Position numbers and translations under genes: made by a program. Below the pieces are notes generated by a model. That model was not told the origin of the DNA. It made no database searches and saw nothing but the letters and a program-made list of their open reading frames with translations. A DNA stretch of 64,000 nucleotides from NCBI RefSeq assembly GCF_008831285.2, contig NC_045139.1:36158970-36222969 (forward strand), in the 5' to 3' direction. Origin of the DNA: Nymphaea colorata (Eukaryota > Streptophyta > Magnoliopsida > Nymphaeales > Nymphaeaceae). Positions 4,204-64,000 of the stretch are shown piece by piece (within the stretch, counting starts at the first letter, position 1; the number at the start of each line of letters is the position of its first letter).

Positions 4204-4240
<37 letters not shown>

Positions 4241-4324: not shown

Positions 4325-4375
4325 CCCAATCTGTGTCGTCTGGATACGTGATATGAAATGCTTGCCATCCTTGCA

Positions 4376-4385
4376 TCTTATATTG
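4376..4385 (-). promoter_or_regulatory. Possible TATA box of the subtilase gene
   Basis: The minus strand reads CCAATATAAG about 55 bp upstream of the subtilase ATG. Position and sequence suit a plant TATA element, but the match is short and the 5' UTR would be very short. Confidence 0.3.
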
Positions 4386-4399
4386 GAATTAGAATGTCT

Positions 4400-15896: not shown

Positions 15897-16268
15897 TAAA
15901 AAAATCATAAAGAAGTGCTAATGCCTCCATAAACCATTGTCAGGTGCTCATTAATATCAATTTAGTGACTTTTTTTTAGCTACATATATTCTTTAAAATT
16001 TAAACATCTAGTGACATCATGCACAGGAAGCATTGAACTCCCCGATATATCGACACGTACATGTGTATATATATGCATATAATATATATAGAAAAAAGAG
16101 AAAGCAAGATACCCTTTCATAAACTCATGAACGTACAAGTAGATTGAGAGTGTGAAAGTAACGGCTCGTACTTCTCTAGGTAGTAAGCATTTTGAGAGCG
16201 ATTTCATCTCTATGGTCAACAACAATGGGAACAGTTTGCCATTTCATCTTTCTGTTCTAAAACCATGG

Positions 16269-24700: not shown

Positions 24701-26958
24701 AAGCAGTTTCACATTTTTAGCTTATGTGGCAGCAGATAAATATAATATTCGAAATCTTGAATCTGTTAGAGCTGCAAAAGCTAATGGTTAATATGTTAAC
24801 ACAAATTCAGATAGTTGTACTAACAGAACAGAGGCCACCATATTTTTGAGTTACTAATCTCAGAAATTTACCAGATTTGCATTTTTTATGCTTGAATTGT
24901 GTGACAGCTTCTAAATATAAACGAAAAATCAAGAATTTATTTTTATATGCAGAAGCTGTGGTACTGACTGTTGAAAAAAATTCAGATACTTATCTAACAA
25001 TCACCACTATATATTAGAATGGACTCTGCTTGGAAGTTGACTTGGTTTGGTAGCCAGTGTACAACTGTAGTTGTGACGGAAATTTAACTCTAGAATATCT
25101 ATATATATGTCTAGCTGATGCAAGCACATATACTGGTTTAGTTCATCATTTGAATGGTTTGTGGCCGAGTGTCTCCCATCTGGAAAATAATCACTGATCA
25201 ACATATTTATGGCTAAGTGTGTACGGAATAAGACATGATTATATGAATATATTCCACATGTTCACATCTTAAATTTGTGTATGCATGTGCGGAGCCTCAT
25301 ATGGCAAGATATGTGCAGTGGTTTTACTGCAGAGAAAACAACTCTTAACTCCTCAGGGATTAAGTTATAATGATTGAGTGGATTTACTGCAGAAAAAGAA
25401 TTAAGTCCCCTCCCTAGTTTATTCCAGGTGATTCATAAGGAAACCTTTGCCCTCACCGACATTGACAGCATGACCATCTGACTACTTACATAATGTACAG
25501 TCTTCTGATAAAACTTGGTTAGGGCAACTGAGACATGGATCAACCTTCTGTATGCAAGTGGATATTTTTCAACCAATAAGTTATAGTTTTTCCAAAAGTT
25601 GTACAGTAGTCATCTTGATTCTTGAGCACTATGTGTAGGCATACATTGTTTATACATTTTGCTTACCCTACAAGTATGAAATCTTTAGTACTGATGTTGT
25701 ACCTGCTGAATGACTGTGATTCTGAAATGCTACCAAAAGTCAAATGTTGATTGTTTTGTTTAAATTCAATTTTGTCCATCTTATTTATGCAGATGGCTTC
25801 TTGGTTATCCAGTTGCTTATTTGTTCACTAAAGATCATGTTGCTGATGCAATATCAAACCTGTCTTCCAAGCCTCTTCACCTTTACATGATTTTGGTTTG
25901 CAGGTATGAAAGTGACCTATTCCTGCAGTTTAATCTCACTTACAACCATTTATCCTAATGTGTTGGGATTTTTACGTTGCAGAAATGTGGTATCCAAGAA
26001 GGACAATTTTCAAGAACTAATGAGGTATAATTGCTTATGTATGCTCCATTGCAAGTTAGATCTATTCGTTTGAAGTCTCGTTGTCTTGCTGTCTTTTGAC
26101 TGTTTGTAGCTGGCAATTGTTTTCAAAACGTTGCGTAACTGTATGTAGGCAAACAGAAAAATTATGTGTTGTTGATTTCCTGCTATAAGCAACCTAAGTA
26201 TCTTGTCATTTCTCCAAAGACCAAATTTTCTGAATGGAATTCATTTCTTTGAATTTCATTGATGAAGCAGCAGCTTGCCAAAAATAAATTTTAAGGGCAT
26301 GGAACCTGTTTATCTAAACCATCATAACCCTGAAGAACGCTAGCAGGCTTGTCATGGTCATTTAAACTGGAAAAAATTGAATGCAATGAGAGCCACTGAG
26401 AAATGAGAATTGCATGAGCAATAACGACAAATTATAGCAGTTCTGTTTTATAAAATATTATTCAATTTTGAAAATTCTCTCTCCTTTTCGAAAATTAGAC
26501 AATGATTTTTCATTATATCTTTTCTTAACTTTTCTCACTGCTTTTATGAGTATTTCTCTGCAAGCCCTAGGCTAGCAAGCATTTCATATTGTTTTGATTG
26601 TATTCCAAATCTCATGGTTTTCTTAGGATTTGTGTAACTGAAGATGGTTTGGACAAAGAGAGACAGAGAGGGAGAAAATGCATACTTTCAGGATGGACCC
26701 ATCTGTTAGGAAACATGCATGCCTCCAAACACATGAAAACACAAACTCGAGTATGATAATGGATTCTGACTCTCTTTTTTTTGTGATGATATGAATAGTT
26801 TTACGGTGCCTTGTGAATTGAGCATGCGGGGAGATGATGAGCAATGGGCTAAAGCATTTATGGTGGACATGTCGTCAAAACTTGAGAGATGTAAACAAGT
26901 TTGGAGGCATTTGAAGTTAGAAGTTCGTGAATGCTACCCTCAGTCTATTGTGTTATAG
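21743..26958 (+). CDS. C1orf74/UPF0739-like (DUF4504) protein, complete
   Basis: Conserved eukaryotic protein of unknown biochemical function; I recognise it as the plant member of the C1orf74/UPF0739 family. Exons: 21743-21845, 22759-22868, 23910-24059, 24163-24422, 25793-25903, 25983-26024, 26799-26958; total 936 nt (311 residues plus TAG), close to the family length. Landmarks in order: N-terminal DAFRVIDASIAEIKWKLRPS, then GLRPAVMVDYGGHG, LRVMIIEDMIYLIHIRGLAEH, ILFVDIDKDPPK, MQDSQVTLPTLNGWLLGYPVA, DAISNLSSKPLHLY, and C-terminal LEVRECYPQSIVL. The ATG at 21743 was chosen because the family begins M-(D/E)-N-S-Q-V; the frame stays open upstream. Most splice sites are good; the exon 2 donor (AAG/GTCTGA) is weak. 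No signal peptide or membrane segment is seen, so it is probably cytosolic or nuclear. It is the intact source-like copy of the broken duplicate at 11833-15896. Confidence 0.85.
22441..26639 (+). repeat. Segmental duplicate B (intact copy)
   Basis: Partner of 11833-15896, starting in intron 1 and ending in intron 6 of the DUF4504 gene. Copy B is longer because copy A carries several deletions, e.g. in introns 2 and 6. Confidence 0.9.
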
Positions 26959-39925: not shown

Positions 39926-41054
39926 TGCTTAATTCTGGCACCGTCGAGTACTGCCGAAGAGCCGACCAGCGGTGCAGCTGGGTGCAGCTGGGCACGACGA
40001 TTACCACCCAACAAGCCTATGTCCTTGTTGCCTTGTGAGGTTAGCTTCGGCGGGGATTGCTGAGAGCAGCAGGCCGCAGTACTACGCGCGGCCAAGGATC
40101 GGCACAAGCCCAAGAAACGACTTGCAGGGTCGGCCACTAGCACCTATGTGCGAAGAGCCAAGTGCACACAAGTGGGTGGGATCACACGGCACCTTGGCAA
40201 GGTTCTAGGTTTCACACATGTAGACCCTTTGAGCACCACTTGTATGGCTGCAGTGGGAGGAGTGGGCGGAGTAACTAAGGTCGAAAAAGGTAAGACATGG
40301 TCCAAATCCATAGAGAAAACGAGCGCAACCAAATCTACTCCAAGCGCCCTTTTTACTTATGTTTATTTACTCTTATGTATCGTCTCAACTTGAGACGTTC
40401 TTTGGTTCAGTTTTTCTTTGGTTCAGTTTGTTTTTATCTCGTCTTGGGTTAGAGTTAGAACCGAAACACTCTCATGTATATAAGTCATGTAATTAGGGTT
40501 TTTCTCTTATGCTTGAATGAAGATTTGATTTCATTTGAGTGTCGCTTTCTCTCTCCTCTTTTCCTCCCGAGCTTTGTCAATGGTGGTGGCCGGATCCTAG
40601 TCCGACCTCAACCGGTGTGGCCGGAGTTCTACCCACAGCCAGCGGCCTCCTTTATTTCTGATCTCTCTTCTTCTCCTAAAGTCACCCCTTCCATGGCCGA
40701 TTGGATGACGATTTGAAGATGACGGACGTTGCTGTCGGCGACCTCTCCATCTTCTCCAAGTCACGACGTTTCCCCAACCAGTAAGCTAGGTGATCCACGG
40801 TGCAACTTTCCTTAACCACAAAGGGAGGTTAGAGGCCGGTTTCATCTCACGGGCAGGCTGCAGTGCAGGAGCACGCCAGTAGATCTGGTGTTATACTTCT
40901 AAAGTAACAGCACGACAATCTACCGAACGAACATCCGCCTCCCCTGTGCCTACGATAGAAGGAGAAGCGGTGGCAAAACACAAAGCTGAGACCAATCCGC
41001 CCTGCTGAGTGTGATCTTGAGTAGCGATAGCGCCTTGGCAGCAAGGTTCTATCA
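39926..41054 (+). repeat. 5' LTR
   Basis: Starts TGCTTAATTCTGGCACCGTC and ends GGTTCTATCA. It contains a TATA-like core, 'atgtatataagtcatg', at about 40473. It differs from the 3' LTR by scattered substitutions, a missing stretch of about 12 nt near 39958, and a small duplication of 'ctttggttcagttt' near 40400. Confidence 0.85.
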
Positions 41055-43329: not shown

Positions 43330-44439
43330 TGCCTAATTCTGACACCGTCGAGTACTGCCGAGAGCACTGAAGCAGAGCCGACCAGCGGCATGAGTTGCAG
43401 CTGGGCACGACGATTACCACCCGATGGGCCTATGTCCTCGTTGCCTTGCGAGGTTAGCCTCGGCGGGGATTGCCAAGAACAGCAGGCCGCAGCACTACGC
43501 GCGGCCAAGGATGGGCGCAAGCCGAAGAAACGACCTGCAAGCACCTATGTGCGAAGAGCCAAGTGCACGCGAGTGGGTGGGATCACACGGCACCTTGGCA
43601 TGGTTTTGGGTTTTACACATGTAGACCCTTTGAGCACCACTCGTATGGCTGCAGTGGGAGGAGTGGGCAGAGCAACTAAGGTCGAAAAAGGTAAGACATG
43701 GTCCAAATCCATAGAGAAAACGAGCGCAACCAAATCTACTCCAAGCGCCCTTTTTACTTATGTTTATTTACTCTTATGTATCGTCTCAGCTTGAGACGTT
43801 CTTTGGTTCAGTTTGTTTTTATCTCGTCTTGGGTTAGAGTTAGAACCGAGACGCTCTTATGTATATAAGTCATGTAATTAGGGTTTTTCTCTTACTCTTG
43901 AATGAAGATTTGATTCCATTTAGGCGTCGCTTTCTCTCTCCTCTTTTCCTCCCGAGCTTTGTCAATGGTGGTGGCCGGATTCTAGTCCGACCTCAACTGG
44001 CGTGGTCGGAGTTCTACCTACAGCCAGCGGCCTCCTCTATTTTTTATCTCTCTTCTTCTCCTAAAGTCACCCCTTCCATGGCCGATTGGATGATGATTTG
44101 AAGATGACGGACGTTGCTGCCGGCGACCTCTCCATCTTCTGCAAGTCACGACGTTTCCCCGACCAGTAAGCTAGGTGATCCAGGGTGCAACTTTCCTTAA
44201 CCACAAAGGGAGGTTAGAGGCCGGTTTCATCTCACGAGCAGGCTGCAGTGCAGGAGCACGCCAGTAGATCTGGTGTTATACTTCTAAAGTAGCAGCACGA
44301 CCATCTACCGAACAAACATCCGCCTCCCCTGTTCTTGCGATAGAAGGAGAAGCAGTGGCAAATCACAAAGCTGAGACCAATCTGCCCTGCTGAGCGTGAT
44401 CTTGGGTAGCGATAACGCCTTAGTAGCGAGGTTCTATCA
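43330..44439 (+). repeat. 3' LTR
   Basis: Starts TGCCTAATTCTGACACCGTC and ends GGTTCTATCA. Colinear with the 5' LTR over its whole length, with a TATA-like core at about 43858. Confidence 0.85.
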
Positions 44440-47109: not shown

Positions 47110-47589
47110 CTGCATGGCGGATCTCAGCTGGCTGAAAGGCTGCACCCCCGGGCTCCGCCAACCGGAATATGCAGATTGAGGAAAGGAAAACCCTAATTTT
47201 ATTTGGATCCTGGACCCAGACTCAAAACTGACAAAGATCTGAAACTCAATGGGGGCAAATCAAATTGATCCTAGTTAATATCCCAATCAAATCCAAACCC
47301 AAATCCAGCCGACGCATCATCTTAATACTTCTTTATCAATAGGAACATGGAAAACCAAGAAAAAAAAATGAAAAGGTACATTTATTTGTACACAAAAGTA
47401 CAAGCTTCATACTTCTTCATACACATAACCAAACCCAATTGAATAACTCCCCAAAAAAGGGAAAAATAATATAATACCAATCAATTAACGCCAACAGTCG
47501 GCATATTCAACTGGATAGGCTAGCTGCTGGTAGGGGGCCAGTTACTGGTTCAAATATCAATGGTGCCAAAAATGGCTCTCATGAATAAA

Positions 47590-47823
47590 TCAATTGCCAG
47601 GCCCTTTAGGACTTGGGCCAGATGCCAAGAGACCCATCCAAGTGGCCACAACTGTCCTGGCCTGCTCATAAGGGTAGATGACCAGGTAGCCCTTCCCTGG
47701 GACCAGCTCCTCCCCCATGGGCCTTGCTGCTGTTATTTCCCCAGCTTGCATCAGCATCAACATGAAGCCACACAAAACCAAGGTGGAAACCAAGCCAGCA
47801 AAGGAACTCCTCCAAGACTTCAT
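47590..47823 (-). CDS. PIP/PIPL-type secreted signalling peptide precursor, copy A
   Basis: Intronless 77-residue precursor. The first ATG (47823) is followed by KSWRSS and a hydrophobic signal peptide (LVSTLVLCGFMLMLMQAG). A variable middle follows (AARPMGEELVPGKGYL), then the C-terminal motif SGPSPKGPGN at the very end. SGPSPxGxGH is the signature of PAMP-induced secreted peptides (PIP and PIP-like), which are cut from the C-terminus and sensed by LRR receptor kinases in immunity. In this copy the SGPS core is canonical but the last residue is Asn, not His. CLE and IDA peptides also end in N, but their cores differ. A TATA box lies about 256 bp upstream. Copy B at 52977-53210 is about 93% identical in protein. 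Confidence 0.8.
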   Translation of the reverse strand: MKSWRSSFAGLVSTLVLCGFMLMLMQAGEITAARPMGEELVPGKGYLVIYPYEQARTVVATWMGLLASGPSPKGPGN

Positions 47824-48078
47824 ACTCACTGCTTGAGATGGGCACTTGAGAAGAAAGCAGCAATTGGGTAGTTAACTGAAGTGGTCTGCTGTTGGGATAA
47901 CTCAGGAAATTCTAAAGGATTTTGGGCTAACTGCTCTGCTGTTGGGATAATCCAGGATATTCTAAGGGTTTTAGGGGTTTTCTCTTGGAGCGGCTTTTGC
48001 TAGAGATAGAAAGAGAAAATGTTTTCAGGGAATGAGAATGAGTGAGATGGGCTTCACAATGAAACCTTTCTCACTTGT

Positions 48079-48085
48079 TTTTATA
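48079..48085 (-). promoter_or_regulatory. TATA box of PIP-like copy A
   Basis: The minus strand reads CCCCTATAAAAACAAG upstream of the gene, conserved at the same spacing in copy B. Confidence 0.55.
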
Positions 48086-48099
48086 GGGGAAATTGTGGG

Positions 48100-49735
48100 G
48101 CAGGTGAGGTTGCTTCCTTGTTTTGGTGCCAACTTCAACTTGGCTTCTTGGTCATTGACCATCTTGGATTTCAACCTTGGCCTTTTAGAATGGCAAGAAA
48201 GGACCTCTAATCTTCTCTTATTCCTTGTTTAGCCACAAGTTTAGCACCATGTAAGCGCGAGCGATACCATCAGAATCGGCCGATTCGAATCGAACGGGTA
48301 GCAAAACGATCCGACTCAGAGACCGATTCTCGATAATAAAACAGTTTAACAATTTTATTATTTATAAATTATTTATAAATATATATATATTTTCATGTTT
48401 CTAACTAAATTATCATGTATTATTCTTATTGATTCACAACTGATTGCATTGGGCGCATGAGCTAAGGGTGTTCTTGTCTATTCTGAAAAAAAGGGTTTTA
48501 ACAAGGTCGAGCTCCGTACAGTCCTCTGTCCAGTTACGTGAAGACCAAGCTTGTCGAGGTAAGCTTTTCTTACTCTCCACGTCTTTGAACATGTGTTTGA
48601 ATCGGGTGGCCGCGCATGGAAAGGCAACGTGCTGAGTTGAGCGCCTTGCCTTCTGTTTGCATCTCCCGGGACAAATTCTCCGTTCACGTTCACACTCACT
48701 TGACCGGTAAGACTTTTTGTTCGACTCAGCTGCTGCTACGGGTGTACCTTGAGCTCGAGTTCGGATTTGATCTGTTTAAAGTTGTATCACTTGATTCATA
48801 TATATTTTTTAAAATAAAAATAAAAACTACAAAAAAATGTTAAAATTTGTTAAAAAATACCAACATTCCCTTAAAGATTAATAAATAAAGAAGACATGAG
48901 TTGAGTTGAAAGAAATCAAGCTTGTGTAAGTCGAACTTAACTTGTTTATAAGTCAAGTTTTAATATTCAAGCTGGAGCTTAGAGTTCAAGCTTACATAGA
49001 GGAGTTCGAATGAAACCGAGTTAGTTCGACTCGTTGTGCATCCCTAGCTATTGGTGCAGATGTTATCGTTAACTGAGCTTCGATGAAGGGCAAGTGCTGA
49101 CCAAGAAGTTACTCCAATGATGGGACATGATGGTCATATTACACATCTCGAGATAGAATAGAATTGCTCTTCAACCTTTGGTATGTGAGAGGGAAATGAA
49201 TGGAATGTTCTAACTTCTAAATTGCCTCTACCCATTACCTCTTTAAATAAATCTTCTAAAAAAAGTCGGTTTTTTTTTTGTTTCTTAAACTTTTAGAACA
49301 CTTCTGGATTTAAAAAAATGTTTTGGAAGAAAAATGTTGTTTGAAAGCCCCGGATCTCAGACCCGAAGATCTTAACAACGGAGGGTGGTGTTTAAGGTAT
49401 TGAGTGAAAATCAAGATTGAATTTTTGAAAAAGGAAATGACAAACAATAAGGTTTTTCATAAAAATTGAAAAAAATGCGGTTTATCATTGGATTTCAACT
49501 CTTTTATTTAGGAAGTAGAACGATAGAAGCTGCGAAATCTATCTTTGATTCATAAGAATTAAAGATTATTTTAACGCAAAAGGGCAATTGTTAAAATGTG
49601 CAGGCATTCTTGTTTTTGGTGGTTCTTTTGATCTTTTCTGAAAGTCGTCAGTGAAGTAAGGATGGATCAAAACCATTAAAAAATGCAGCCAGTATTCAAA
49701 ATTATGGCAAAAAGTGGGTGTACGAATGAAAAATT
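48100..49735. other. Upstream DNA of PIP-like copy A, no gene recognised
   Basis: AT-rich with transposon-like stretches such as 'cagaatcggccgattcgaatcgaa' (about 48270, repeated at about 53687 in unit B). No coding sequence was recognised. Confidence 0.5.
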
Positions 49736-49739
49736 CCCT

Positions 49740-50115
49740 TAAAACCGGCAGGCCGGGGCGAGGGTGGCCGCCGCCGGAAGAGGCCGCCAGTCTTCCTTCC
49801 CCTGCGTTTTCCTTGTCAGTTTCCCAGCTTGACTTGGGAAAGCCGTAAGTACGACCACCGCCCTTGACTCTCTCCAGTTCCGGACCCTGGCCGCCGAATT
49901 CCATGCATGGATGACAGAACCAGCCGCTCGACCTGGCCGGCGATAGCTGGAGAAAGGCTCCTCCCTTCGCTCGCGCAAGCGGTGATGCCATCTTAGTCCT
50001 GCCGCACGAGTGGTTTCAATCCGCCGCCAGCCAGTGGGGCGTGTGACTGTTGCCTGCGCTACGGCGGCGCTCACCTGCTGGCCGCCATAAGCCGGCGAGC
50101 GAGCGGCGAAGACCA
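49740..50115. other. GC-rich, CpG-rich block, copy A
   Basis: Strongly GC-rich island in AT-rich surroundings, matched by 55313-55790 in unit B. Open frames of 125 and 141 residues exist on the minus strand, but the two units differ by indels that shift the frame, so protein coding is unlikely. It could be a promoter/first-exon relic or part of a repeat. Confidence 0.5.
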
Positions 50116-50119
50116 CCAG

Positions 50120-52205
50120 TAGCTAGGCGTTCTTCCCTTTTAAATACCCTCAGGCTTCAACAAGTGTGGGCATCGGGTCGGGCCGGTCCGAGTCCGGCTC
50201 CCCGCCTTGATAAAGAGCCGACCCAGGCCTGGATTGGACCCAACGATTAAAACTCGAAGTCGATTAAATTAAAAATATATATAGTTTAATATAAAAAATA
50301 TATAAATATAATTACTTGTAATAAAATATTATATTTATATGTACAAATTAATTAAAATAAATATTTAAAAAGTTATTGAGCCCATTGCAACCAAATCGGC
50401 CCAGTGTTTTTTTTTTTTAGTTCGGGTTCAGGCCGAACCATGCCCATGCCCAGCTTTAATCTTAATATCTTTCTTTTGTGAGCTGAAGAAAAAGTAAAAA
50501 ATAAATGTACTTTTATTTATTTATTATATAAACTAAAAGATCTCTACTTTTTTTTTTGGAGGAGGAAACAAAAGATACTCTCTCCCTTGGCCGAGTGTAT
50601 TATTGAGATACCTCATATTCAAACTACGTGTAAACAAACACGGAACTGAGCACCTACACTCTTTTAATATATAATATTGTGAGACAAAAATAAGATAGAC
50701 AAAATGTCTCGGATAGACTATACCTCACACGCCTCCCAACCACATCACAAATACCTTAACTATAATGCTCAATATCTCCAAAAGATTGCAAGGATAATCA
50801 CAATAGTTTAGTGTTTGATAGCTTCGAATCTCGAATTTGAGGCTGCATCAAAAGGTGTGATCTCAATAACATACATCTTAAATTCATTTACATGTAAAAA
50901 ATCCTAGATCTAAGGAGGGGGGTCTGACTTTAAATTAAATCCATGTATATGAGTTCAACACCTGGTAATGTGAACTCATTTAAAACTTCAGTTCTTCATT
51001 AAAATACATTGTTAACATGAAACTTGTATCAAATTTTGAAATATTTGGTAAGTATCATGTTCAGAATATGATTAACATTTCAAAACCAAGTTGAGAAGGA
51101 CATAAGAATAACATCAATTTCATTATAATATAACCAAAACATGGATGAAAAATAATACATTAAGGCAAAATTTGATTGCTTGAATTTTTATTATTTGTGA
51201 TGACAAGGAGTTCCCACTTGTATAAGAGCCATCCAAGCATTTGTTGTATATGTCTTACATTGCTTGTAGATTAATTCGCTAGATCACCCGAGTCAGCTCG
51301 AATCGATAGAAAATCTGGCCACGAGTCAAGGTTGGCATGACTCACCCCTGACTTGGCCCGACTCGTTTTTGAGTCGGCTCTGGCTGAGTTAATTGGGATC
51401 ATCAACTAATTAAATATATTTTTTTATAATGCATAGCTTAATACTAAAATTTTGTTTTTCTTGTTTAATTCGTGAAATATTACATACTTTACTAAGTAGA
51501 CAAAAAATATCCATCTTACATGTTATTCAGTTTTAGTTGACCACACCAAACATATCAAGCATGAACCATCATAAACTTACATTCTTCCTCTAGTCATAAA
51601 AAAATGCACTATAAAATTTTATCACCTAATTGAGAGAGTCACTGAGCCAACTTTTGACCTAATGACATAGCCTTCAGCCGTTTTGAGTATGAGTCACGGG
51701 TTTGCCAACTATGTCGATAGGTCCACTACGAGAAGGCAAGTGAACGCATGATCAAGACAAGCATTTATTGTTTATTCTGACATTCAAAACGCCTTTATAG
51801 AATCATTTTATTTATGGCACTAGTGAAGGAAAAATCAGGTCATGTATTATTTGATATTCTTTTTCCAAATTATTAATTTTCCTGTATATTAGTTTCTCTG
51901 TCTAAAGTTCCAGCGTTCCGCTTCCCGGTGTTTAAGCCGTGACGGCCTGCTTTGCTTCACCAGCATCCTGCTACCAAGGAGGTGGTCCGCGGGGACTGGT
52001 GCTCTGGGGCGGAGCCAAGGTAGGGCTCGCATGGGTCCTAGCCCCACCTCTTTTTTTTTTTAAAAAAAAGAAATTTACATGTAAATTTTAAAAAAATCAC
52101 TTGTTTTATATAAAAAAATTTAAAAAATTACATTTCCGCCCTAGTAAAAATTTAGCAACTTTAATTTAACTGTCTCATGAAAAATTTCTAGCTCTGCCCC
52201 TACAC
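50120..52205. other. Spacer between duplication units, repeat-derived
   Basis: Mostly AT-rich, with words typical of degenerate transposon ends (cgggtcgggccggtccgagtc near 50173, gagtcggctctggctgagtt near 51371). Nothing coding was recognised. Confidence 0.45.
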
Positions 52206-52261
52206 CCACTGCGGGGCTGAGCTCAACCGGCTGGCTGAAAGGCTGTTCCTTTGGGCTCCAT

Positions 52262-52263
<2 letters not shown>

Positions 52264-52322
<59 letters not shown>
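52264..52322. repeat. (TA)n microsatellite
   Basis: A pure TA run of about 58 nt near the start of unit B. Unit A has only 'ggaatatgcag' at the matching place. Confidence 0.95.
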
Positions 52323-52326
<4 letters not shown>

Positions 52327-52344
52327 GGAAAATGACAACCCTAA

Positions 52345-52546
52345 TGAGGTGTTTGATATACCAGAATCATAAAATTTTATTAGAATCAAAATACTTATTT
52401 TTTAAGAAAATAAAATTATTAAACAAATGGGGTATTGTGTTTCTGAAATTAAGAAACTAAAACTTAATTTTGATTCCATTTCAATTTAAGGAGAAATTAT
52501 GATTCTAGAATTTCATTCTTAAAATTCCAAACCATCAAATGCTCGA
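52345..52546. mobile_element. MITE of about 202 bp, PIF/Harbinger-like, with empty site in unit A
   Basis: The element is flanked by CTAA on both sides (52341-52344, 52547-52550). Its ends are imperfect inverted repeats (TGAGGTGTTTGATATACC, and on the opposite strand GTCGAGCATTTGATGG). Unit A reads straight through as ccctaattttatttgg (near 47190), which is the empty site with one target copy. A TAA-type target and a GTGTTTGAT-type end fit Tourist/Harbinger MITEs. Confidence 0.7.
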
Positions 52547-52976
52547 CTAAATTTATTTGGATCTTGGACCCAGACTTGAAACTGAAAAAGATCCAAAACA
52601 CAATGGGGGCAAATCAAATTGGTCCCAGCTAATATCCTAATCAAATCCAAATCTAAGTCCTGCTGAGGCATCACCTTAATACTTGTTTTCCAATAGGAAC
52701 AGGAAAAACCAAGAAAAAAAAAACAACGAAAAGATGCATTTATTGGTCTGAATCAACTCACAAAAGTACATACTTCACACTTTTCCATACACATAACCAA
52801 AACCCAATTGAATAACCCCCAAATAATGGGATAAAAAATGGAAAAGAATGCAATACCAACAAACTATTCTATTGGTTAGACTAGCAGCTGGTAAACAACC
52901 AGTTACTGGTTCAAATATCAATGGTGTCTACTCTTTGTGAAAGCCAATGCTCAAGAAGGCTCCCATGACTAATCAA

Positions 52977-53210
52977 TCAATGGCCAGGCCCTTTAGGGCT
53001 GGGGCCAGCTGCCAAGAGATCCATCCAAGTAGCCACAACTGTCCTGGCCTGCTCATAAGGGTAGATGACCAGGTAGCCCTTCCCTGGGACCAGCTCCTCC
53101 CCCATGGGCCTTGCTGCTGCTATTTCCCCAGCTTGCATCAGCATCAACATGAAGCCACACAAAACCAAGGTGGAAACCAAGCCAGCAAAGGAACTCCTCC
53201 AAGACTTCAT
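52977..53210 (-). CDS. PIP/PIPL-type secreted signalling peptide precursor, copy B
   Basis: Intronless, 77 residues, starting at the ATG at 53210 as in copy A. It has the same signal peptide and the same middle. The C-terminus ends AGPSPKGPGH: the terminal GH is canonical for PIP peptides, but the first Ser of SGPS is Ala. Nearly all differences from copy A are single substitutions in the last 15 residues (ATWMDLLA against ATWMGLLA, A for S, H for N). Its promoter is conserved, with a TATA box at 53468-53474. Both copies look intact. Confidence 0.8.
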   Translation of the reverse strand: MKSWRSSFAGLVSTLVLCGFMLMLMQAGEIAAARPMGEELVPGKGYLVIYPYEQARTVVATWMDLLAAGPSPKGPGH

Positions 53211-53467
53211 CCTCACTGCTTGAGATGGGCACTTGAGAAGAAAGCAGCAATTGGGTAGTTAACTGAAGTGGTCTGCTTTTTGGGATAACTCAGGAAATTC
53301 TAAAGTATTTTGGGCTAACTGCTCTGCTGTTGGGATAATCCAGGATATTCTAAGGGTTTTAGGGGTTTTCTCTTGGAGTGGCTTTTGCTAGAGATAGGAA
53401 AAGAGGAAATGCTTTCAGAGGAATAAGATTGAGTGAGATGGCCTTCACAATGAAACCTTTCACTTGT

Positions 53468-53474
53468 TTTTATA
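53468..53474 (-). promoter_or_regulatory. TATA box of PIP-like copy B
   Basis: CCCTATAAAAACAAGTG on the minus strand, at the same distance from the ATG as in copy A. Confidence 0.55.
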
Positions 53475-53699
53475 GGGCAAATTGTGGAGCAGGTGAGGTT
53501 GCTTCCTTGTTTGGTGCCAAGGGAGACCAAAATTGGGAACACCAACTTCAACTTGGCTTCTTCTTGGTCATTGACTATCTTTGGTTTCAACCTTGGCCAT
53601 TTAGAATGACAAGAAAATACCTCTGATCTTCTCTTATTCATTCCCAAGCTATGAGTTTAGCACCACTTAAGCGTGAGCGACGTCATCAGAATCGGCCGA

Positions 53700-55310
53700 T
53701 TCGAATCGAATGGGTAGAAAACCGGTTCGACTTGATGGCAGACTGTGGGTAATAAAATTTTTAAAATATTTTTATCATAAATGAAAATGAAGACGAAAAA
53801 AAAAATGTTAAAATTCATTACAATTACCAACATATTCTTAGAGATTAATAAACAGGGAAGACGTGAGTTTATTAGAGTTGAAAGAAAGTGAACTCATGTA
53901 ACTCAAGCTCGACCCGCTTATAACTCGAATTTGAATTCAAACTCGAGCTTGACTCTTTTATTGAACACTTCGAGCTTTTACACAAGTGAATTCAAGTCGG
54001 AGTTGGCTCGACTCATTGTGCATACCTAGCTGCTGGAGATCGTATCATTAATCGAGTTACGATTAGGTCAAGTTTTAACAACAACAGCTATAGTATCCTT
54101 AATCTAATGTTAATATTTTAATGGTATTTATGTTTTAAAAGTTGGTAGCTTACATCTATTTGTGTATATACTTGAAGATTTTTCACCTTATGATTTAAAT
54201 TCCTATTGCACTGGTTGGACAGATGAACATGGATATGAACGAAGTCCACATTCACAGCGTGAGGTCCAGACTGCAGAATTCAAATAGGAGGACAATCTTG
54301 ACAATGTTGGTAAACTATCTAACAATACAAAGCAAATTTTGAACGAAACACCATAGTTCAACATGGACCAGTGAGGAGGAATTCGACCGTATCCAATTCC
54401 AAGCATATTTGGACCATTCCAATCTAAACTATTCATTCATATAAACTTTGCATTTGTTTCAGAAAAAATTCACATTGGAGAAAATCTTCTAGTAATAATT
54501 CCTAATACAGGTCTCACGTTTCTAATTTTCCTACGACAGGCATAAGTTTTCAAGCAGGTTATATGTTAACCAGTACAACGAAAGGCATGGAAAAAAACGC
54601 CATCCAGTTGTGCCTCAGGAAGAGCTGAAGGGCTTTTTGGGTGAGTATGAGGTTATTCAGCTTAGCTCAAGGTTAGTTGAATCTTCTTTTTTTCCTTATT
54701 CCATTAATGTCTAATGATATTATACTGTAACCATTGTGCCAACTATAGTTACAAACAACATCTCGGATTTTTAAACAACGAGGTTTTTTTCGAGTATAAT
54801 AAGGTGGTTTTTTTCGGGTATAAATAAAATGAGGTTGAAAAATATGAGAAAAAAGGTGGGAAATAGTATTTTTTTAAATAAAAAAACTAGAAATAAAAAA
54901 TGTGAAAGAATAATAGCACAAAACTGTAAATAGCATTTCATTTTTTTACGTTTTTGTCGCATTCTTTTTCAAAAATAATGCATTTTTTGTCGCCTTGTAG
55001 TCATAACACCCACAACCTTCTCTTAAATTTACTAACAAAATGAGGGTTTTGCTTTAACATTGCATTTCATCTCTTTATTTAGGACGGAGAACGGTAGAAG
55101 AAGTGACATCCTATCGTTGCTTCGTCGGAAGTAAAGATTTTTTTTAACGCAGCAATGTGTAATTTTCTTGTTTAGTGTTTTTTTTTTGAACTTTTACGAA
55201 AGTCGTCAGGGAAAGTAAGTAAGGATGTACCAAAAACAATGAGAAAAATGTGGCACGTATTCAAAATTATGGTTAAAAAGCGGGTGTACGAACGAAAATT
55301 TCCCTTAGAA
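53700..55310. other. Upstream DNA of PIP-like copy B, with one coding-like stretch
   Basis: About 53700-54060 matches unit A. The insertion private to unit B includes a plus-strand stretch at about 54545-54675 reading SSRLYVNQYNERHGKKRH and VPQEELKGFLGEYEVIQL, of exon-like quality, between possible splice sites. I cannot assign it to a family. About 54760-54960 is A/T-run-rich. Confidence 0.4.
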
Positions 55311-55312
55311 AA

Positions 55313-55790
55313 CGGGCACGTAACACAAAAGGCATGATGGGAACAGGAAGGAGGAGGCAGGCGGCCGGGGCGATGGGCCCGCCGCCGGAAAATTCAGGGG
55401 GGAAAAGGCCGGCGGTCTTCCTTCCCCTGCATTTTCCTTGTCAGTTTCCCAGCTTGACTCGGGAATGCCCAAAGGACGACCGACGCCCTTGACTCTCTCC
55501 CGAACCCTGACTGCCGAATTCCGACGCATGAACGACAGAACGAGCCGTTAGATTTAGCCGGCGAGAGCGGGGGAAGGGCTCCTCTCCTCGCTCGCGCTAG
55601 CGGTGGCGCATCTAAATCCTGCCGCACGAGTGGGTCCAATCCGCTGCCTCTCCTTCGCCGCTACCGCCGGACTATACGGACACCAGCCACTGGGGAGTGT
55701 GACTGTGGCCTGCGCTACGGCGGCGTTCACCTGCTGGCCGTCACAAGCCGGCGAGCGAGCGGCGAAGACCTCCAGTTACTGCCCGCCAGA
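55313..55790. other. GC-rich, CpG-rich block, copy B
   Basis: Counterpart of 49740-50115. Shared phrases include 'cttccttcccctgc', 'gacttgggaaagcc/gactcgggaatgcc' and 'aagccggcgagcgagcggcgaagacc'. Frames are not conserved between the copies. Confidence 0.5.
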
Positions 55791-55799
55791 ATCCGATTA

Positions 55800-56749
55800 A
55801 CACATCCCACAGAACCAAGTTGAGAAGGAGAGAAATATTAGACTTGATTAAGTGCACAGAAGTATCCATACTATGACTTTACTAATTAGTATACATAAAT
55901 ATCTATATTACACGTTATTCAGTTTTAGTTAATGAAAAATATCAAACATGAAGCCCTGACAAAAACTTGTCTTATTCATCTATTCATTAAAAAAAAAGTA
56001 CACTATAAAAATTTATGGTCAAACCCAGCCAAGTAATAAGGTCAAACAAAACCTTGACCTAACCAACTGCTGTATGAGTCACATGTAACCAACTACGTCT
56101 ATTAAGTCAAATATGGCTAAACGATTGTACATGCATGATCAAGACAAACAAGTTATTGTTTATCCTGACTTTCAAACACGCCTTTACGCTACCATTTTGT
56201 ATATGGTAATATTAGGTCAAGGGAAAAAATCAGTTCATATTTTATTAAGGAATGCAAGCACTTTTGTTAACTCAATTGATTGTTTTTTTTTATAGGAAGA
56301 GGACATTCAAATGTTAATATGAAAAAAAATATATGAAAGTCAAATAAATAACTTATAGAAAAATTATACAAAACCATACGAAAAACTTATGGAAAAAGTA
56401 TGAAAATAAGATGATAAACTTGTTTGTTGAGAAAACTATTTGTCTAACTACTCAAACATATCATTTGCTCAAACATACGACCTCATAAAAATTTTATTTA
56501 GTTGACAAATTAATTGTTTTAGATAAGAAAGAGAATTGGTCAAAGAATGTACATGATAATAATATAAAGCATTCTTAAATGACTTAAACACATAGCAATC
56601 AAATATGACACATCATGAGTATGAGGAACTTATTGACATATATGATAAGCTAACATTTAAAACAACTTCACCAACTACATCAAAATTAAGTAATAAATAT
56701 TTGTTCATAAAAAGAAAATATGAAAATCTAAAAGATCACAATAATCTTT
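55800..56749. other. AT-rich spacer left of the inverted duplication
   Basis: The end of unit B and then very AT-rich DNA. Short open frames lack domains. Nothing was recognised. Confidence 0.5.
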
Positions 56750-58725
56750 TTGACTGCCCGTTTCATGCCTTAATCTGTTATCTTTGCTTAGGTGGTTACT
56801 TTTGCCTGGCTCAGGGGATCATTACCGTATAATGATCTATACGATTCTCCAACTCTGCCATTTTTGGTTTCATTGTCCTTATTACAATCGCGTGTATAAA
56901 TTTCAAGCTTCTATCCTGCTTGTAAGGGAAAGGGATCACAGGTGTTATTCACCTGGGTGAGTAATGTCTCCCAACCCAAGTTGTGGCACATCCCCCATGT
57001 GAAGAAGATGGCTGGGAACTGGTGTGTGTACAGGAAACACACTGGTCTTTTCTTGGAGACTTTGGTACTTTGTTTATGACATTTTTTGAATATGAGAGCC
57101 CAGATTTTGAAAGTTTTTTGCACCTGCACCTTGCAACACAACATAAGGCAAATTCCTCTGCTTTAGTTTGTTGTAGCTGGTTGCTTTTTCTTTTTGAATT
57201 TTGCATTTGTTAAAGAGCTTGAGACCTGCCTCTTTGGGCCTTTGCCTCTTTTCCTCCCCACGTACGTATGTATGCCTTTGTTTTCTCAAGTGTCGTTTGC
57301 TTCTTCAAGATGGTCATGTATATATACTGGGCCAGTCTTGTGGTGGTTTAAGGTTGCACATGAATAAGCAATTTTTTCTGTGTACTGATGATCACATTTG
57401 CTTGTTTTTCCTTCAGTATGTTATCAATCACCAAGCATTACAGTGCCTGTTGAATCTTTTGATGCACAATCACAAGAAAAGTATAAAGAAGGAAGCATGC
57501 TGGACGATTTCAAACATCACTGCTGGAAATAAGGTTTCAGGTATATGTGATTTCTGGTTCAGGTGGATTTAGTGATGAATAAAGGTTAAAAGGGGAATTA
57601 AAACTTTTGTTGAACTTACCTTTTTATAATTTTGGATGTGTATTGGGAATTATTATTGTTTTTCTTTGTCAAACTTTCTTTTTTATAAAATTATATGTAT
57701 ATGCGTATGTATTTTATGTATGCGTGACAAGGAAATTGGAGTTATTACAATTTACAAAGGTTTGCTAAATGCTTTGAGCTTTTGAATAATTGTTATTGGG
57801 GTGGTTGGGCAGTTTGTCAACTTTGGTATCTTTCTCTCTATTTATTATGTTTTGGAAATTGATTTTGCTTTGGGAATCTCAATTGTGGAAGCTTATACTG
57901 CGGTTATTCATTTTTTTGGGTTGCAGGCTGTTATTGATGTTGATATATCATTGGTCCACTTGTACATTTGCTTCAAACAGCTGAGTTTGATATAAAAAAA
58001 AGATGCAGCTTGGGCAATCTCCAATGCAACTTCAGGGGGTACACACGATCAGATAAAAGTATGTTTTGATGTATGAAGCTTCATATGCACAGAAAAGGAA
58101 ATGTTGTTTTAGTATTGTTTGTCGGATCATTTTTTTTCCTTAATTGGTAAACCTTGTTATTTAGTTATCTGGTGAGTCAGGGTTGCATCAAACCTTTGTG
58201 CGATCTTTTGGTGCGCCCAAACCCAAGAATTGTGACGGTTTGTTTTGAAGGATTGGAGAACAAATTGAAGGTTGGGGAAGCTGAAAAGAACATGGGCAAC
58301 ATTGGAGTTTGGTCGTTAGATGTTCTTAAAAGATGTGGTCTTAATTCCTATGTCTTGCATGCTAGATGTTCTTAAAAGGTGTGAAGATTGGGTTTCATAG
58401 TTCATTTGGTGTTTACTATATATATTTTGTTGTACATAAATCATATTTGGATCAGATTTACATATGCTTTAGAAGTCATAAATCAGATTTGGATATAACT
58501 TAAAATTCGGATTCGGATCAAATTCAAATATAACTTAAAATTTAGATTCGGATCGGATTCAAATATAACTTAAAGATCGGATTTGTATCGGATTCATATG
58601 TAGATTTTAAAATCGGATTTGGATATGGTATAATTTTTTTCATTCAAATTTGAATTTAAATCTAAATCCTAATATATGAATATCTTAAAAATCGAATATG
58701 GTAAAAAGTGTATCTGATTCGAATA
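56750..58725 (+). repeat. Left arm of large inverted duplication
   Basis: Near-identical to the reverse complement of 61105-63040. The outer end is at 'gactgcccgtttc' and the inner end near 'aatatggtaaaaagtgtat'. It carries an importin-alpha gene fragment with introns. Confidence 0.9.
57417..58330 (+). pseudogene. Importin subunit alpha fragment, left arm copy
   Basis: Importin alpha is the armadillo-repeat receptor for nuclear localisation signals. Three exon relics cover its last repeats: 57417-57533 ([33 protein letters not shown]), 57927-58058 (AVIDVDI, then LVHLLQTAEFDIKK and AWAISNATSGGTHDQIK), and about 58164-58310 ([16 protein letters not shown], then [14 protein letters not shown]). 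The rest of the gene is missing on both sides. The second relic has two extra bases after GATATA, shared with the other arm, and an eighth A in the AAAAAAA run found only here; both break the frame. The fragment has no start codon. Confidence 0.85.
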
Positions 58726-58740
58726 TTATCCGTTGACATC
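58430..58740. repeat. Degenerate 'cggatt..aaatataacttaaa' tandem repeat, left inner arm end
   Basis: About five imperfect units of 30-45 nt, each with a cggat(t/c) core followed by aaatataacttaaa. The mirror copy lies at 61130-61370. Confidence 0.7.
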
Positions 58741-59120
58741 CCTAAATGAATGACACCATGTGGCAACAATCAATGTCATCTGTATCGAACGATACGCACG
58801 CGTATTGTACGATACGGGAGTACGATACGATGCGTGTTTTTTTAAAACATACGCTCCTTTCCTCCCTCTCTCTTTTCTTGTTTCTAAACATCGCAAGAGA
58901 CATGGGATGGAGAGATTTTCTCCATTTGCATCAACCTTTGCCGGTGAATAAGCTTTCTTTCTCGTTGTGGGGAGTTTGGGGACGGTGGTAAGCTTGGAGA
59001 AAGAGAGTTTTTTGGTTTTTAACACCAAGAAGGTAAGAAATAACTCATTTTTGCCGTTGAATTGTTCATTTCTCTTATTTTCTACATTTATTTATATGTT
59101 TTTGCTTGTTTGGTGAAGAT

Positions 59121-60370
59121 ATGTCGGATCCTGTATGGAAGTGGTGTACAATGGTGAATCTCAAAGATATGTTAAAAGTTAAGTGTAATTTTTGTAAGCA
59201 AATCATATCGAAGGGATCTCTCGCTCTAAACATTATATAGTTGCTACACACAGTGATGTAGCTCAATGCATTGGCTCCCAAGAAAACCCATTGCCATTCC
59301 ATATAAGGCACCAATGTTTGGAGCTTATTAATGTCGTGAAAGCAAGTAGAATTGAAAAGGTAATGCAAGATGCCGATGTAGGATTGGGGACCCATATAAA
59401 GAAGAAGGAAGCGAAGGTGAAGATGTTAAGCTCAAAGAAGAAGATGTTGGTGTTAGTTTGGAAATAGCTAAAGGGAAAGCCATCATGCATATAGGTGGTT
59501 CTTCTTCAACTGCAACCAGAAAAAGAAGATGTGCAAGTGCAAGTACAGTTCTATGAGGACGTGGTAGGAGTGGGGGTCATACACTCGTACTGGTGGTGGT
59601 AGAGTACTTACTCTGAAGTCGAGCAATAGGTCTAGTTCGATCAAGAATTTTTTTTCTAATTATATTGTTGTTGGTGCTCAGTCTGATATTTGTACAGCCA
59701 TGTATAAGGATATTGTTGAAGCAGCAGATGAAGCCATAGAAAGGTGGTTCTATGACTCATCTATTCCCTTCAATGCAGCAAACTCAAAATGTCCTCTTTT
59801 CATAAATTGCGAAGTAAAATTCTCAATAATGTAGTTAGAGATGTCAAGACATATTGTGATGAACTGAAATTGAGCTGAAAAAAGACAAGATGTAGTGTAA
59901 TGGCTGATGGGTGGACAAACATAAAAAACAGAACATTGGTAAACTTCCTTGTATATTGCCTCTTTGGTACAATGTTCTTAAAATATGTTGATTTGTCTGA
60001 TACTCCTAAGGCTGCTGATGTTTTGTTTGAGGTTTTTGATAAAATTATACAAGAAGTTGGGCTTCAAAATGTCGTGCAATTTATCACTGATAATGCAGAA
60101 AATTATAAAGCTGCATGTGAAATGTTAGCAGCACGATATATAGGACATTTTATTGAAGCTCATGTGTTGCTCACTAAGTAAATCTAATACTTCAAGATCT
60201 TTGTGAAAGAGATGATATGAAGTAGCCAGTTCTTCAAAGATGCCAAGAAATCACGAAGTTTAGTTATAATCATGCTTATGTCTTGAATTTAATGAGGAAA
60301 TCCACAAATAGGGCTGAATTGATTCGACATACACAAACACAGTTTGCTACAAATGTTTTGACATCTTAAA
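59121..60370 (+). pseudogene. hAT-superfamily transposase relic (BED finger plus DUF659)
   Basis: It lies between the two inverted arms. From the ATG at 59121 a BED-type zinc finger reads MSDPVWKWCTMVNLKD, then CNFCKQIISKG, and then breaks frame. About 59735-59790 reads AIERWFYDSSIPFNAANS. 59900-60181 is an open DUF659 core (MADGWTNIKNRTLVNFLV to VVQFITDNAENYKAA). About 60255-60365 reads ITKFSYNHAYVLNLMRKSTN and ELIRHTQTQFATNVLTS. Several stops and frame changes separate these pieces and the C-terminal dimerisation domain is missing. It is dead as a transposase. Confidence 0.85.
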
Positions 60371-60584
60371 ACTCACTGATACTATTTGTACCTCAGCCGA
60401 GATCACCTCGACCGTGTCTGCCATCGACGAAACAGCTGCAGCCATCATCTTCACCCTCAATGCATGGCACTGGGCAGTAAGGGCACTTGGAGCTCCCTTG
60501 GGCTCTACATGGGTCTTGGGGGCTAGCAAGAAAATCTTTAGTTTCCACCCTCCTTAGTAAACAACATGGATATGGTGGGAATGA
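60371..60584. other. Unassigned GC-richer segment between hAT relic and ndhF fragment
   Basis: About 60393-60540 is GC-richer than its flanks (e.g. gagatcacctcgaccgtg). Frames on both strands are short and not recognised. It could be filler captured with the plastid DNA. Confidence 0.35.
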
Positions 60585-60998
60585 TCCATATGGCATCTCC
60601 AAAGAATGCATTATTGTTTTTAGGGTCTGGATCAATCATTCATTCCATGGAACCCATTATTGGGTATTCTCCGACTAAGAGTCAGAACATGGTTCTTATG
60701 GGCGGTTTAACTAAATATATGCCAATTACAAAAACAACTTTTTTTTTAGGTACACTTTCTCTTTGTGGTATTCCACCCCTCGCTTGTTTTTGGTCCAAAG
60801 ACGAAATTCTTAATGATAGTTGGTTGTATTCACCGATTTTTGCGATAATAGCTTTCTACACAGCAGGATTAACTGCATTTTATATGTTTCGTATGTATTT
60901 ACTTACTTTCGAAGGGCATTCACGTAGTCATTTTCAAAATTACAGCGGACACACAAATAGTTCCTTCTATTCAATATCCATATGGGGGCAAGAAGGTT
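60585..60998 (+). pseudogene. ndhF: Plastid ndhF fragment in nuclear DNA (NUPT)
   Basis: A stretch of about 410 bp translates without a break as the middle of plastid NAD(P)H dehydrogenase subunit 5: [20 protein letters not shown], then [59 protein letters not shown] and [17 protein letters not shown]. It has neither end of the roughly 740-residue protein and sits next to a hAT relic inside nuclear repeats. The open frame suggests a fairly recent transfer. It is not expected to function in the nucleus. Confidence 0.9.
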
Positions 60999-61104
60999 CC
61001 CAAGCACTACATTGACGCCATCAATGGGTTGTACATAATGGTCAACCAAAGATGCATCATCCGAATGGTGAACTCACCTCACTACACATAATGAAGCATT
61101 CTAA

Positions 61105-63040
61105 ACTTGTTCGAATTGGATATACTTTTTACCATATCTGATTTTTCGAATATTTATATGTTCAGATTTGGATTTAAATTCAAATTTAAATGAAAAACAA
61201 TTTATACCATATCCGAATCCGACTTTAAAATCTACATCTCAATCCCACCCGCATCTGATCCGAATCTAAATTTTAAGTTATATTTGAATTTGATCCGAAT
61301 CCGAATTTTAAGTTATATCCAAATCTGATTTATGACTTCTAAAGCATATGTAAATCTGATCCAAATATGATTTATGTACAACAAAATATATATAGTAAAC
61401 ACCAAATGAACTATGAAACCCAATCTTCACACCTTTTAAGAACATCTAGCATGCAAGACATAGGAATTAAGACCACATCTTTTAAGAACATCTAACGACC
61501 AAACTCCAATGTTGCCCATGTTCTTTTCAGCTTCCCCAACCTTCAATTTGTTCTCCAATCCTTCAAAACAAACCGTCACAATTCTTGGGTTTGGGCGCAC
61601 CAAAAGATCGCACAAAGGTTTGATGCAACCCTGACTCACCAGATAACTAAATAACAAGGTTTACCAATTAAGGAAAAAAAATGATCCGACAAACAATACT
61701 AAAACAACATTTCCTTTTCTGTGCATATGAAGCTTCATACATCAAAACATACTTTTATCTGATCGTGTGTACCCCCTGAAGTTGCATTGGAGATTGCCCA
61801 AGCTGCATCTTTTTTTATATCAAACTCAGCTGTTTGAAGCAAATGTACAAGTGGACCAATGATATATCAACATCAATAACAGCCTGCAACCCAAAAAAAT
61901 GAATAACCGCAGTATAAGCTTCCACAATTGAGATTCCCAAAGCAAAATCAATTTCCAAAACATAATAAATAGAGAGAAAGATACCAAAGTTGACAAACTG
62001 CCCAACCACCCCAATAACAATTATTCAAAAGCTCAAAGCATTTAGCAAACCTTTGTAAATTGTAATAACTCCAATTTCCTTGTCACGCATACATAAAATA
62101 CATACGCATATACATATAATTTTATAAAAAAGAAAGTTTGACAAAGAAAAACAATAATAATTCCCAATACACATCCAAAATTATAAAAAGGTAAGTTCAA
62201 CAAAAGTTTTAATTCCCCTTTTAACCTTTATTCATCACTAAATCCACCTGAACCAGAAATCACATATACCTGAAACCTTATTTCCAGCAGTGATGTTTGA
62301 AATCGTCCAGCATGCTTCCTTCTTTATACTTTTCTTGTGATTGTGCATCAAAAGATTCAACAGGCACTGTAATGCTTGGTGATTGATAACATACTGAAGG
62401 AAAAACAAGCAAATGTGATCATCAGTACACAGAAAAAATTGCTTATTCATGTGCAACCTTAAACCACCACAAGACTGGCCCAGTATATATAAGTATACCA
62501 CATGACCATCTTGAAGAAGCAAACGACACTTGAGAAAACAAAGGCATACGTACGTGGGGAGGAAAAGAGGCAAAGGCCCAAAGAGGCAGGTCTCAAGCTC
62601 TTTAACAAATGCAAATTTTTTACAGCAGTGTCTTGCATACAAAATTCAAAAAGAAAAAGCAACCAGCTACAGCAAACTAAAAAGCAAATGAATTTGCCTT
62701 GTGTCGCAAGGTGCAGGTGCAAAAAAAATTCAAAATCTAGGCTCTCATATTCAAGATGTGTAAAGTCATAAACAAAGTACCAAAATCTCCAAGAAAAGAC
62801 CAGTGTGTTTCCTGTGTACACACCAGTTCCCATGGGGGATGTGCCACAACTTGAGTTGGGAGACATTACTCACCCAGGTGAATAACACGTGTGATCCCTT
62901 TCTCTTACAAACAGGATAGAAGCATAAAATTTATACACGCGATTGTAATAAGGACAATGAAACCCAAAATGATCCCCTGAGCCAGGGAAAAGTAACCACC
63001 TAAGCAAAGATAACAGATTAAGGCAAGAAACGGCAGTCAA
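61105..63040 (-). repeat. Right arm of large inverted duplication
   Basis: Reverse-complement partner of 56750-58725. It differs by small indels; for example it keeps about 23 nt ('tgcaagacactgctgtaaaa' on the minus strand, near 62620-62640) that the left arm lacks. Confidence 0.9.
61490..62393 (-). pseudogene. Importin subunit alpha fragment, right arm copy
   Basis: The same three exon relics as in the left arm, on the minus strand: 62393-62277, about 61883-61752, and about 61650-61500. Here the poly-A run has seven A, so AEFDIKKDAAWAISNATSGG reads in frame, but the two extra bases after GATATA are shared with the left arm and still break the exon. Start and end of the gene are missing. Confidence 0.85.
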
Positions 63041-63590
63041 CAAATCAGGTGTCAAATCAATCACAACATTAGGCAAAACGGGTCTCAAAGATGAGGAAAT
63101 AAAATAACAATAGAGAAAAAGATGGAAGAGGAGGAGAATCAATTTTAGGAAGCAACAACGAAGAAGAACAACGTCAAGGAAAGGAGCAAGACACAAACAG
63201 AATGAGAAAGACGTTGTCTACTGCTAGGACGAGAGAGTTGTTGAAGAAACTTCTATCAGAAAATGAAATCCCCTAATTGTTTTTCAGCCCTTGCAATGTG
63301 AGTTGGCAATCCTGTGGCAACTCAAGCAGATCCACTGACCGAGCAACAAGTCTATGTTATGGCGGAAGAGAAAGGAATGCTGCACATCACCAGCAACAGA
63401 GAGAGAGAGAGTGAGAGGATTACCTACGCAGCAGAAGAGTGAGAGGGCAAGAGAGACGACGACAAGGGATTTTTCTTTTCAATGTTGAAGGTGCGGTGGG
63501 GGTTGGGCAGCAGCGGGTGAAGAAGATAGAAGAGGAAGACGAGGGGAAGCCCTTTTTCAAAACTTCTAGGGCAACCCCCTCCCTCCTCTT
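63041..63590. other. Region right of the inverted duplication, no gene recognised
   Basis: Contains a (GA)n run near 63400-63416. Minus-strand open frames are short or low-complexity. The DNA just outside the right arm (63041-63200) has no counterpart at the left arm. Confidence 0.5.
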
Positions 63591-64000
63591 GTTCGAGTCC
63601 CATACCCCATCCTCCTCCTCCTCCTCCTCCTCCTCCACCTCCTCCCGTCCCTCCTCCTCTTCCCGTCCCCCATTCTCCCTTCCACCTCCACCTCCTCTCG
63701 TTCCTCCTCCCATCCCCCATCCTCCTCCACCTCCACCCGTCCCTCTTCCTCCTCCGCCTCCTCCGGTCCATCCTCCTCCTCCCGTCCCCCAACCCCCCTC
63801 TCCTCTTGTTCCTCCTCCCATCTCCCGTCCCTCCATCCGCCTCCTGCTCCCGTATCCCATCCCTCCATCCGCCTCCACCTCCTCCCCTCCCCCATCCCAT
63901 CCTTCGCCTCGTTCCTCCTCCCGTCCCCCATCCTCCCTTACGCCTCCACTCCTCCCGTCTCTCATCCCCCCATCCGCCTATACCCTCTCTCGTTCCTCCT
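63591..64000. repeat. Pyrimidine-rich CCT minisatellite, continues past right edge
   Basis: The plus strand is almost only C and T, built from cctcctccc, cgtccc, catccccc and ctccacctcc words. A longer phrase of the type 'gttcctcctccc(a/g)tcccccatcctcc' recurs at about 63701, 63810 and 63913, suggesting a higher-order period near 100 bp. The minus strand is G-run-rich. The long minus-strand open frames (Gly/Glu/Arg only) come from this composition. Confidence 0.85.

Follow-up and report, generated by a model that had tools for sequence, protein, structure and literature searches.

An Inverted Duplication of an Importin-alpha and hAT Chimera with a Substitution-Free Core in Nymphaea colorata

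Introduction

Natural inverted duplications tied to small interfering RNAs (siRNAs) have already been described at the Mu killer locus of maize (PMC3440606), for the ARR17 fragments of poplar (PMC9636151), and for chalcone synthase (CHS) in soybean (PMC3534067), and these systems frame the locus considered here, an inverted duplication carrying an importin-alpha fragment in a 64,000-nucleotide stretch of Nymphaea colorata DNA (hereafter, the window). Mu killer is described as a partial inverted duplication of mudrA, for which silencing of MuDR lines was reported and a hairpin made by read-through from a flanking gene was proposed (PMC3440606); the poplar Y carries inverted ARR17 fragments, for which 24-nucleotide (nt) siRNAs and methylation of the target were reported (PMC9636151); and CHS siRNAs were reported for the soybean I locus (PMC3534067). 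Additionally, young MIRNA genes are described as arising through inverted duplication (PMC3237417).

The N. colorata locus resembles Mu killer in that an incomplete gene copy bordered by transposon ends has been inversely duplicated, the ARR17 locus in consisting of inverted partial copies of a distant gene in a transposon-rich region, and the soybean I locus in being an inverted repeat of gene sequence that could give siRNAs against its parent. In contrast to Mu killer, the possible targets include a host gene besides a transposon; in contrast to ARR17, there is no hint of sex linkage; and in contrast to the I locus, only 1.0 kb of the gene is present, with its reading frame broken. Unlike all three, the present locus is known from DNA alone. 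It shares with young MIRNA genes an inverted duplication involving pseudogene or transposon sequence, whereas a short precursor hairpin was not found: its arms are 1.9 kb long and its spacer 2.4 kb, versus a precursor of about 200 nt (PMC3534067). Overall, we consider it likely that the locus is a transposon-associated pseudogene fragment that was copied at the DNA level, inversely duplicated, and recently homogenised in its core by gene conversion.

Results and Discussion

Two facing arms with a sharply bounded core

The window corresponds to C2:36158970-36222969, with the contig end lying 43.6 kb beyond its right end, and the genome searches covered a 407.8 Mb assembly of 783 contigs; the published N. 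colorata assembly is given as 409 Mb in 14 pseudo-chromosomes (PMC7015852). When the window was aligned to itself with gaps allowed, a single inverted pair emerged, the two arms of Table 1 (2,023 columns, 91.05% identity), which is too long a match for chance to account for and which encloses a spacer of 2,386 bp (58724-61109). An ungapped finder returned ten inverted pairs within 50000-64000, nearly all of which are pieces of this arm pair. A preliminary description of the same DNA had placed two opposed, near-identical arms of about 1.95 kb, separated by 2.4 kb, at 56750-63040; the gapped self-comparison confirmed the position, length, spacing, and orientation, while the near-identity held for the core alone (no substitutions) and failed outside it (45 substitutions among 499 aligned bases). 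The preliminary description had overlooked this sharply bounded core, as well as the third junction copy described below.

Substitutions between the arms are confined to positions up to 57171 and from 58555 onward, with none among the 1,378 aligned bases between these points. Of the two flanking parts, the outer one (56758-57171) differs at 21 of 355 aligned bases and the inner one (58556-58723) at 24 of 144; since the inner part consists of short repeats that may align poorly, the outer rate of about 6% is the safer figure. At the pooled outside rate (45/499), the probability of an unchanged stretch of 1,236 bases is near 1e-51, a figure that excludes 57172-57319 and uses boundaries chosen after the data had been seen; the contrast between core and outside is independent of the choice of boundary and rate. 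Four gaps interrupt the core, three of 28, 4, and 9 bp within 57199-57319 and one of a single base in a run of A. The 9-bp and 28-bp gaps look like losses from the left arm, because the right arm resembles the parental gene at the former and a copy of dispersed repeat X (locus L061) at the latter. The contrast between core and outside suggests a recent homogenisation of the core through gene conversion from arm to arm, and the core is the one uncommon feature of an otherwise ordinary kind of locus.

Table 1. Features of the inverted duplication in window coordinates (position 1 is the first base of the window).
Feature	Position	Strand	Remarks
Left arm	56747..58723	+	importin sense on +; gapped self-match
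Right arm	61110..63043	-	importin sense on -; gapped self-match; outer repeat continues beyond the arm end
Substitution-free core	57172..58554	+	left arm, 4 gap events; 0 substitutions/1,378 aligned bases; right-arm counterpart at about 61257-62671
Importin-alpha fragment, left arm	57296..58307	+	parts of three exons with introns, frameshifted; 89% to locus L021 7696-8690 (C5:26428695-26429689)
Importin-alpha fragment, right arm	61504..62523	-	90% to C5:26428695-26429689; Arm repeat E=1.3e-9
hAT terminal part, left arm	58380..58744	+	ends in CCGTTGACATCCCTA at 58744; last ~0.37 kb of a hAT transposon
hAT end, right arm	61110..61431	-	without the last ~21 bp; end motif absent there
5' part of BED/DUF659 hAT element	58790..60362	+	DUF659 E=8.4e-32; zf-BED E=7e-4, just below cut-off
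Plastid ndhF fragment in the nucleus	60605..61003	+	Proton_antipo_M and Proton_antipo_C domains in 60542-61012
Dispersed repeat X	62587..63553	-	runs ~0.5 kb beyond the outer end of the right arm; cut at 56747 in the left arm

Each arm is a chimera of importin-alpha, hAT, and repeat sequence

Each arm is a chimera composed, from its outer end inward, of part of repeat X, a piece of an importin-alpha gene, and the end of a hAT transposon. The importin-alpha exons proposed in the preliminary description were borne out as parts of three exons together with their introns, and they make up about half of each arm; the other half, repeat and transposon sequence, had been missed. The left fragment matches the Arm repeat (E=1.4e-10), and its best solved chain is importin alpha-1a (E=6.5e-27). 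Compared with the parental gene on C5, the arm fragment shows 67 substitutions in 980 aligned bases, 19 of 395 in exons and 48 of 585 in introns, and in both arms its exons have lost 5 bp at one point and gained 2 bp at another, changes that disrupt the reading frame. An origin as a retrocopy is ruled out by the retained introns, and for the same reason the fragment would have been copied at the DNA level and not from mRNA.

The parental gene itself is apparently intact, with an IBB match at 26424341 at its start and open exons through to an Arm_3 domain. Three places in the genome besides the arms match the importin part, which is thus low copy, and a genome search for IBB returned two places. 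The sequence at C5:17259984-17260688 is 80% similar to 57296-57969 and 85% similar to the C5 gene (L023 5910-6689), and it looks like a partial paralogue and not a copy of the chimera. When a partial paralogue served as outgroup, the changes assigned to the arm side numbered 4 in 165 exonic sites and 25 in 478 intronic sites, too few to read for selection on the importin exons.

The importin fragment is separated from the hAT end by a filler of approximately 70 bp. Of 57 genome matches listed (40 of 931 candidates were scored), 53 cover the hAT end, C7 included and often with several matches per place; the end motif given in Table 1 was seen in 13 of 21 loci scanned, and a hAT-like RNase-H domain (E=4.4e-28) lies in an upstream frame of one copy (L048). 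A third junction of importin and hAT sequence, the one further copy found, lies at C7:19321800-19322344 and consists of 0.2 kb of importin sequence, filler, and a partial hAT end (matched to window position 58677). The importin pieces of C7 and of the arms all end at one and the same base of the parent. Because the junction also exists at C7 (one other place found), the chimera is, on this evidence, older than the inverted duplication. In the exon common to both, 143 sites could be compared: the C7 copy has 7 differences from the parent, the arm likewise has 7, and the two have 14 between them, so their separation probably followed the formation of the junction closely.

Relative age of the arms and content of the spacer

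With 40 of 84 candidates scored, repeat X has at least 57 matches besides the two arms (59 in total), often more than one at the same place. Five of these are confined to about 70 bases next to the importin junction and may represent another small repeat, while ten start before window position 63043 and extend at least 0.03 kb past it. In copies on C10, C13, and C8 that were compared over 63553-62587, roughly 0.1 kb of arm sequence (62803-62911) is missing, and inspection by eye of three copies sharing about 1 kb gave no clear protein. Because repeat X passes the outer end of the right arm and stops at that of the left, the right arm is probably the older copy and the left arm a truncated one. 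The hAT end is complete in the left arm only, and the corresponding inner end of the right arm was probably lost later. Next to repeat X, on the outer side of the right arm, 63560-64000 holds C+T-rich degenerate repeats.

The spacer carries two further pieces. With 40 of 631 candidates scored, the piece of a BED/DUF659 hAT element was matched at 81-85% by at least 39 other sequences. The plastid ndhF fragment differs from C783 at 3 of 399 positions (99% identical) and has 31 other matches, 20 of which span at least 250 bases at 96-100%, and 19 of these 20 are on contigs numbered 43 or higher, which may be plastid sequence. These long matches of 96-100% suggest that plastid DNA was inserted recently in the spacer. 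The remaining spacer gave one weak match (60479-60579, 76%).

Proposed origin of the locus

The probable origin outlined above can be set out as a series of events, in an order that we infer from the pattern of junctions and substitutions. The chimera would have formed first, by DNA-level joining of the importin piece, the hAT end, and repeat X, and part of it would also have reached C7. It would then have been inversely duplicated at the present locus, after which the spacer would have gained the hAT piece and the piece of plastid DNA, and the core would recently have been overwritten through gene conversion between the facing arms. The product is most likely a locus without selected function.

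Several points weigh against this account. The gene conversion is read from a pattern seen in one individual, and the tract may start near 57320, since three gaps (28, 4, and 9 bp) fall within 57172-57319; the identity of the core could also, though improbably, come from assembly or polishing. Additionally, the parental gene was assessed from open exons and domains and not from a full gene model, and for the route by which the chimera would have moved only one hAT end was recognised.

Silent repeat or hairpin RNA

Two possible roles, which concern function and are compatible with the proposed origin, were considered. The better placed of the two, a tentative reading that falls short of an even chance, is a silent heterochromatic repeat, in which only the hAT and repeat parts would give 24-nt siRNAs, through RNA-directed DNA methylation, and importin-alpha would be unaffected. 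Repeat and transposon sequence could by itself attract 24-nt siRNAs, and by our own tally about 3.6 of the 6.3 kb of the locus is repeat, transposon, or plastid sequence; the importin part, with its three other places in the genome, is low copy and fits this reading less well.

The role proposed in the preliminary description was a hairpin-RNA locus, in which a read-through transcript folds and is cut to siRNAs of 21-24 nt that lower importin-alpha in trans. The anatomy agrees with this proposal to the extent that a single transcript crossing both arms, begun for instance beyond the right arm, would form a long stem, near-perfect along the core (1.38 kb without substitutions). Dicer enzymes could then cut this stem to siRNAs matching importin-alpha mRNA and the hAT family. 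Compared with the three parental exons (a set of 567 21-mers, with exon edges set by eye), the core shares 107 of its 1,364 21-mers, in seven exact runs of 23-53 nt, and 86 of its 1,361 24-mers; because of the common 21-mers, guides against importin-alpha mRNA are possible, and silencing in trans is likewise possible by sequence. The locus thus has the long complementary arms and the gene match suited to 21-24 nt guides that would be expected of an inverted-repeat siRNA locus, and the poplar, soybean, and maize systems provide precedents (PMC9636151, PMC3534067, PMC3440606).

On the other side, the loop would be 2.4 kb long and largely transposon and plastid sequence. Inverted repeats also exist elsewhere: in 218,384 bases of other loci, which were chosen as repeat copies, partly overlap, and give no measure of inverted-repeat frequency, one other inverted repeat of at least 300 columns was found (15 loci had been left out of this set, namely window overlaps, short loci lying inside others, and L027 and L028, which hold importin sequence). 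This repeat, in locus L031 on C8, is formed by two hAT copies (944-2231 and 3186-4453) that are 78% alike, and it is itself another possible hairpin. Among the 12 items listed by a literature search none carried the name N. colorata, and the term "small RNA" is absent from the main text of PMC7015852, although small-RNA data may exist all the same. Overall, a hairpin-RNA locus is unlikely, roughly a one-in-five prospect, and a real effect on importin-alpha is no more probable than that and perhaps less so. A still stronger form, a living hairpin-siRNA locus that tunes importin-alpha and in which conversion from arm to arm keeps the stem perfect even as the outer parts degenerate, is highly improbable.

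Alternative origins

Two independent insertions, in opposite orientation, of one gene-capturing transposon (a Pack-type hAT) would also place two facing copies of an importin piece at the locus, and the hAT end does adjoin the importin piece in both arms and, in part, at C7. In such an element the importin piece would lie between both terminal inverted repeats; here the outer end of the arm lies inside repeat X, which is common to both arms and continues past the end of the right arm, and so is not a transposon end. Furthermore, a search for the 15-base hAT end, allowing up to 3 mismatches, returned a single occurrence near the arms (58730-58744) with no second copy, and none in 10 kb around the C7 copy. 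Double insertion, weakened by both repeat X and the missing second end, is accordingly very unlikely as an origin.

The least probable origin is an assembly artefact, in which one arm is false or the core was made identical by the assembler or by polishing. A fold-back read chimera would give identical arms with little or no spacer. Here the arms differ outside the core, at 45 of 499 aligned bases and by gaps as well, and the spacer carries sequence of its own; a misassembled arm, the finding that the preliminary description held would count against its hairpin, is therefore unlikely, and we set the fold-back artefact aside as improbable. The window sequence also contains no N. What speaks for an artefact is that the sole substitution-free part is long, and that the probable source assembly was built from PacBio RSII reads with Pilon named in its methods (PMC7015852).

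Other features of the window

The self-comparison also returned direct duplications elsewhere in the window. One joins 11833-15899 and 22441-26642, spans about 4 kb, and is split into two pieces with 86-90% identity, and one of about 1.1 kb (90%) joins 39926-41054 and 43330-44439. A third, in pieces at 69-83%, joins 47193-50120 and 52547-55776; with a further matching pair at 51486-51851 and 55876-56246, it ends just left of the left arm. A perfect tandem duplication of 271 bp occupies 17376-17917, and a subtilase (Peptidase_S8) fragment lies on the minus strand at 1319-1774 (E=8.5e-13).

Conclusions

If siRNAs are made from this locus, it would give an early-branching flowering plant a natural hairpin directed at a gene for nuclear import, and its bounded core would allow one to ask whether gene conversion keeps hairpin stems young. 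Should the improbable case of a living hairpin be true, it would be the geometry of the stem, and not selection on its sequence, that renews it. If no siRNAs are made, the locus would stand as a worked example of the accumulation of transposon remnants, part of a gene, and plastid DNA at one place, and of how facing repeats become homogenised.

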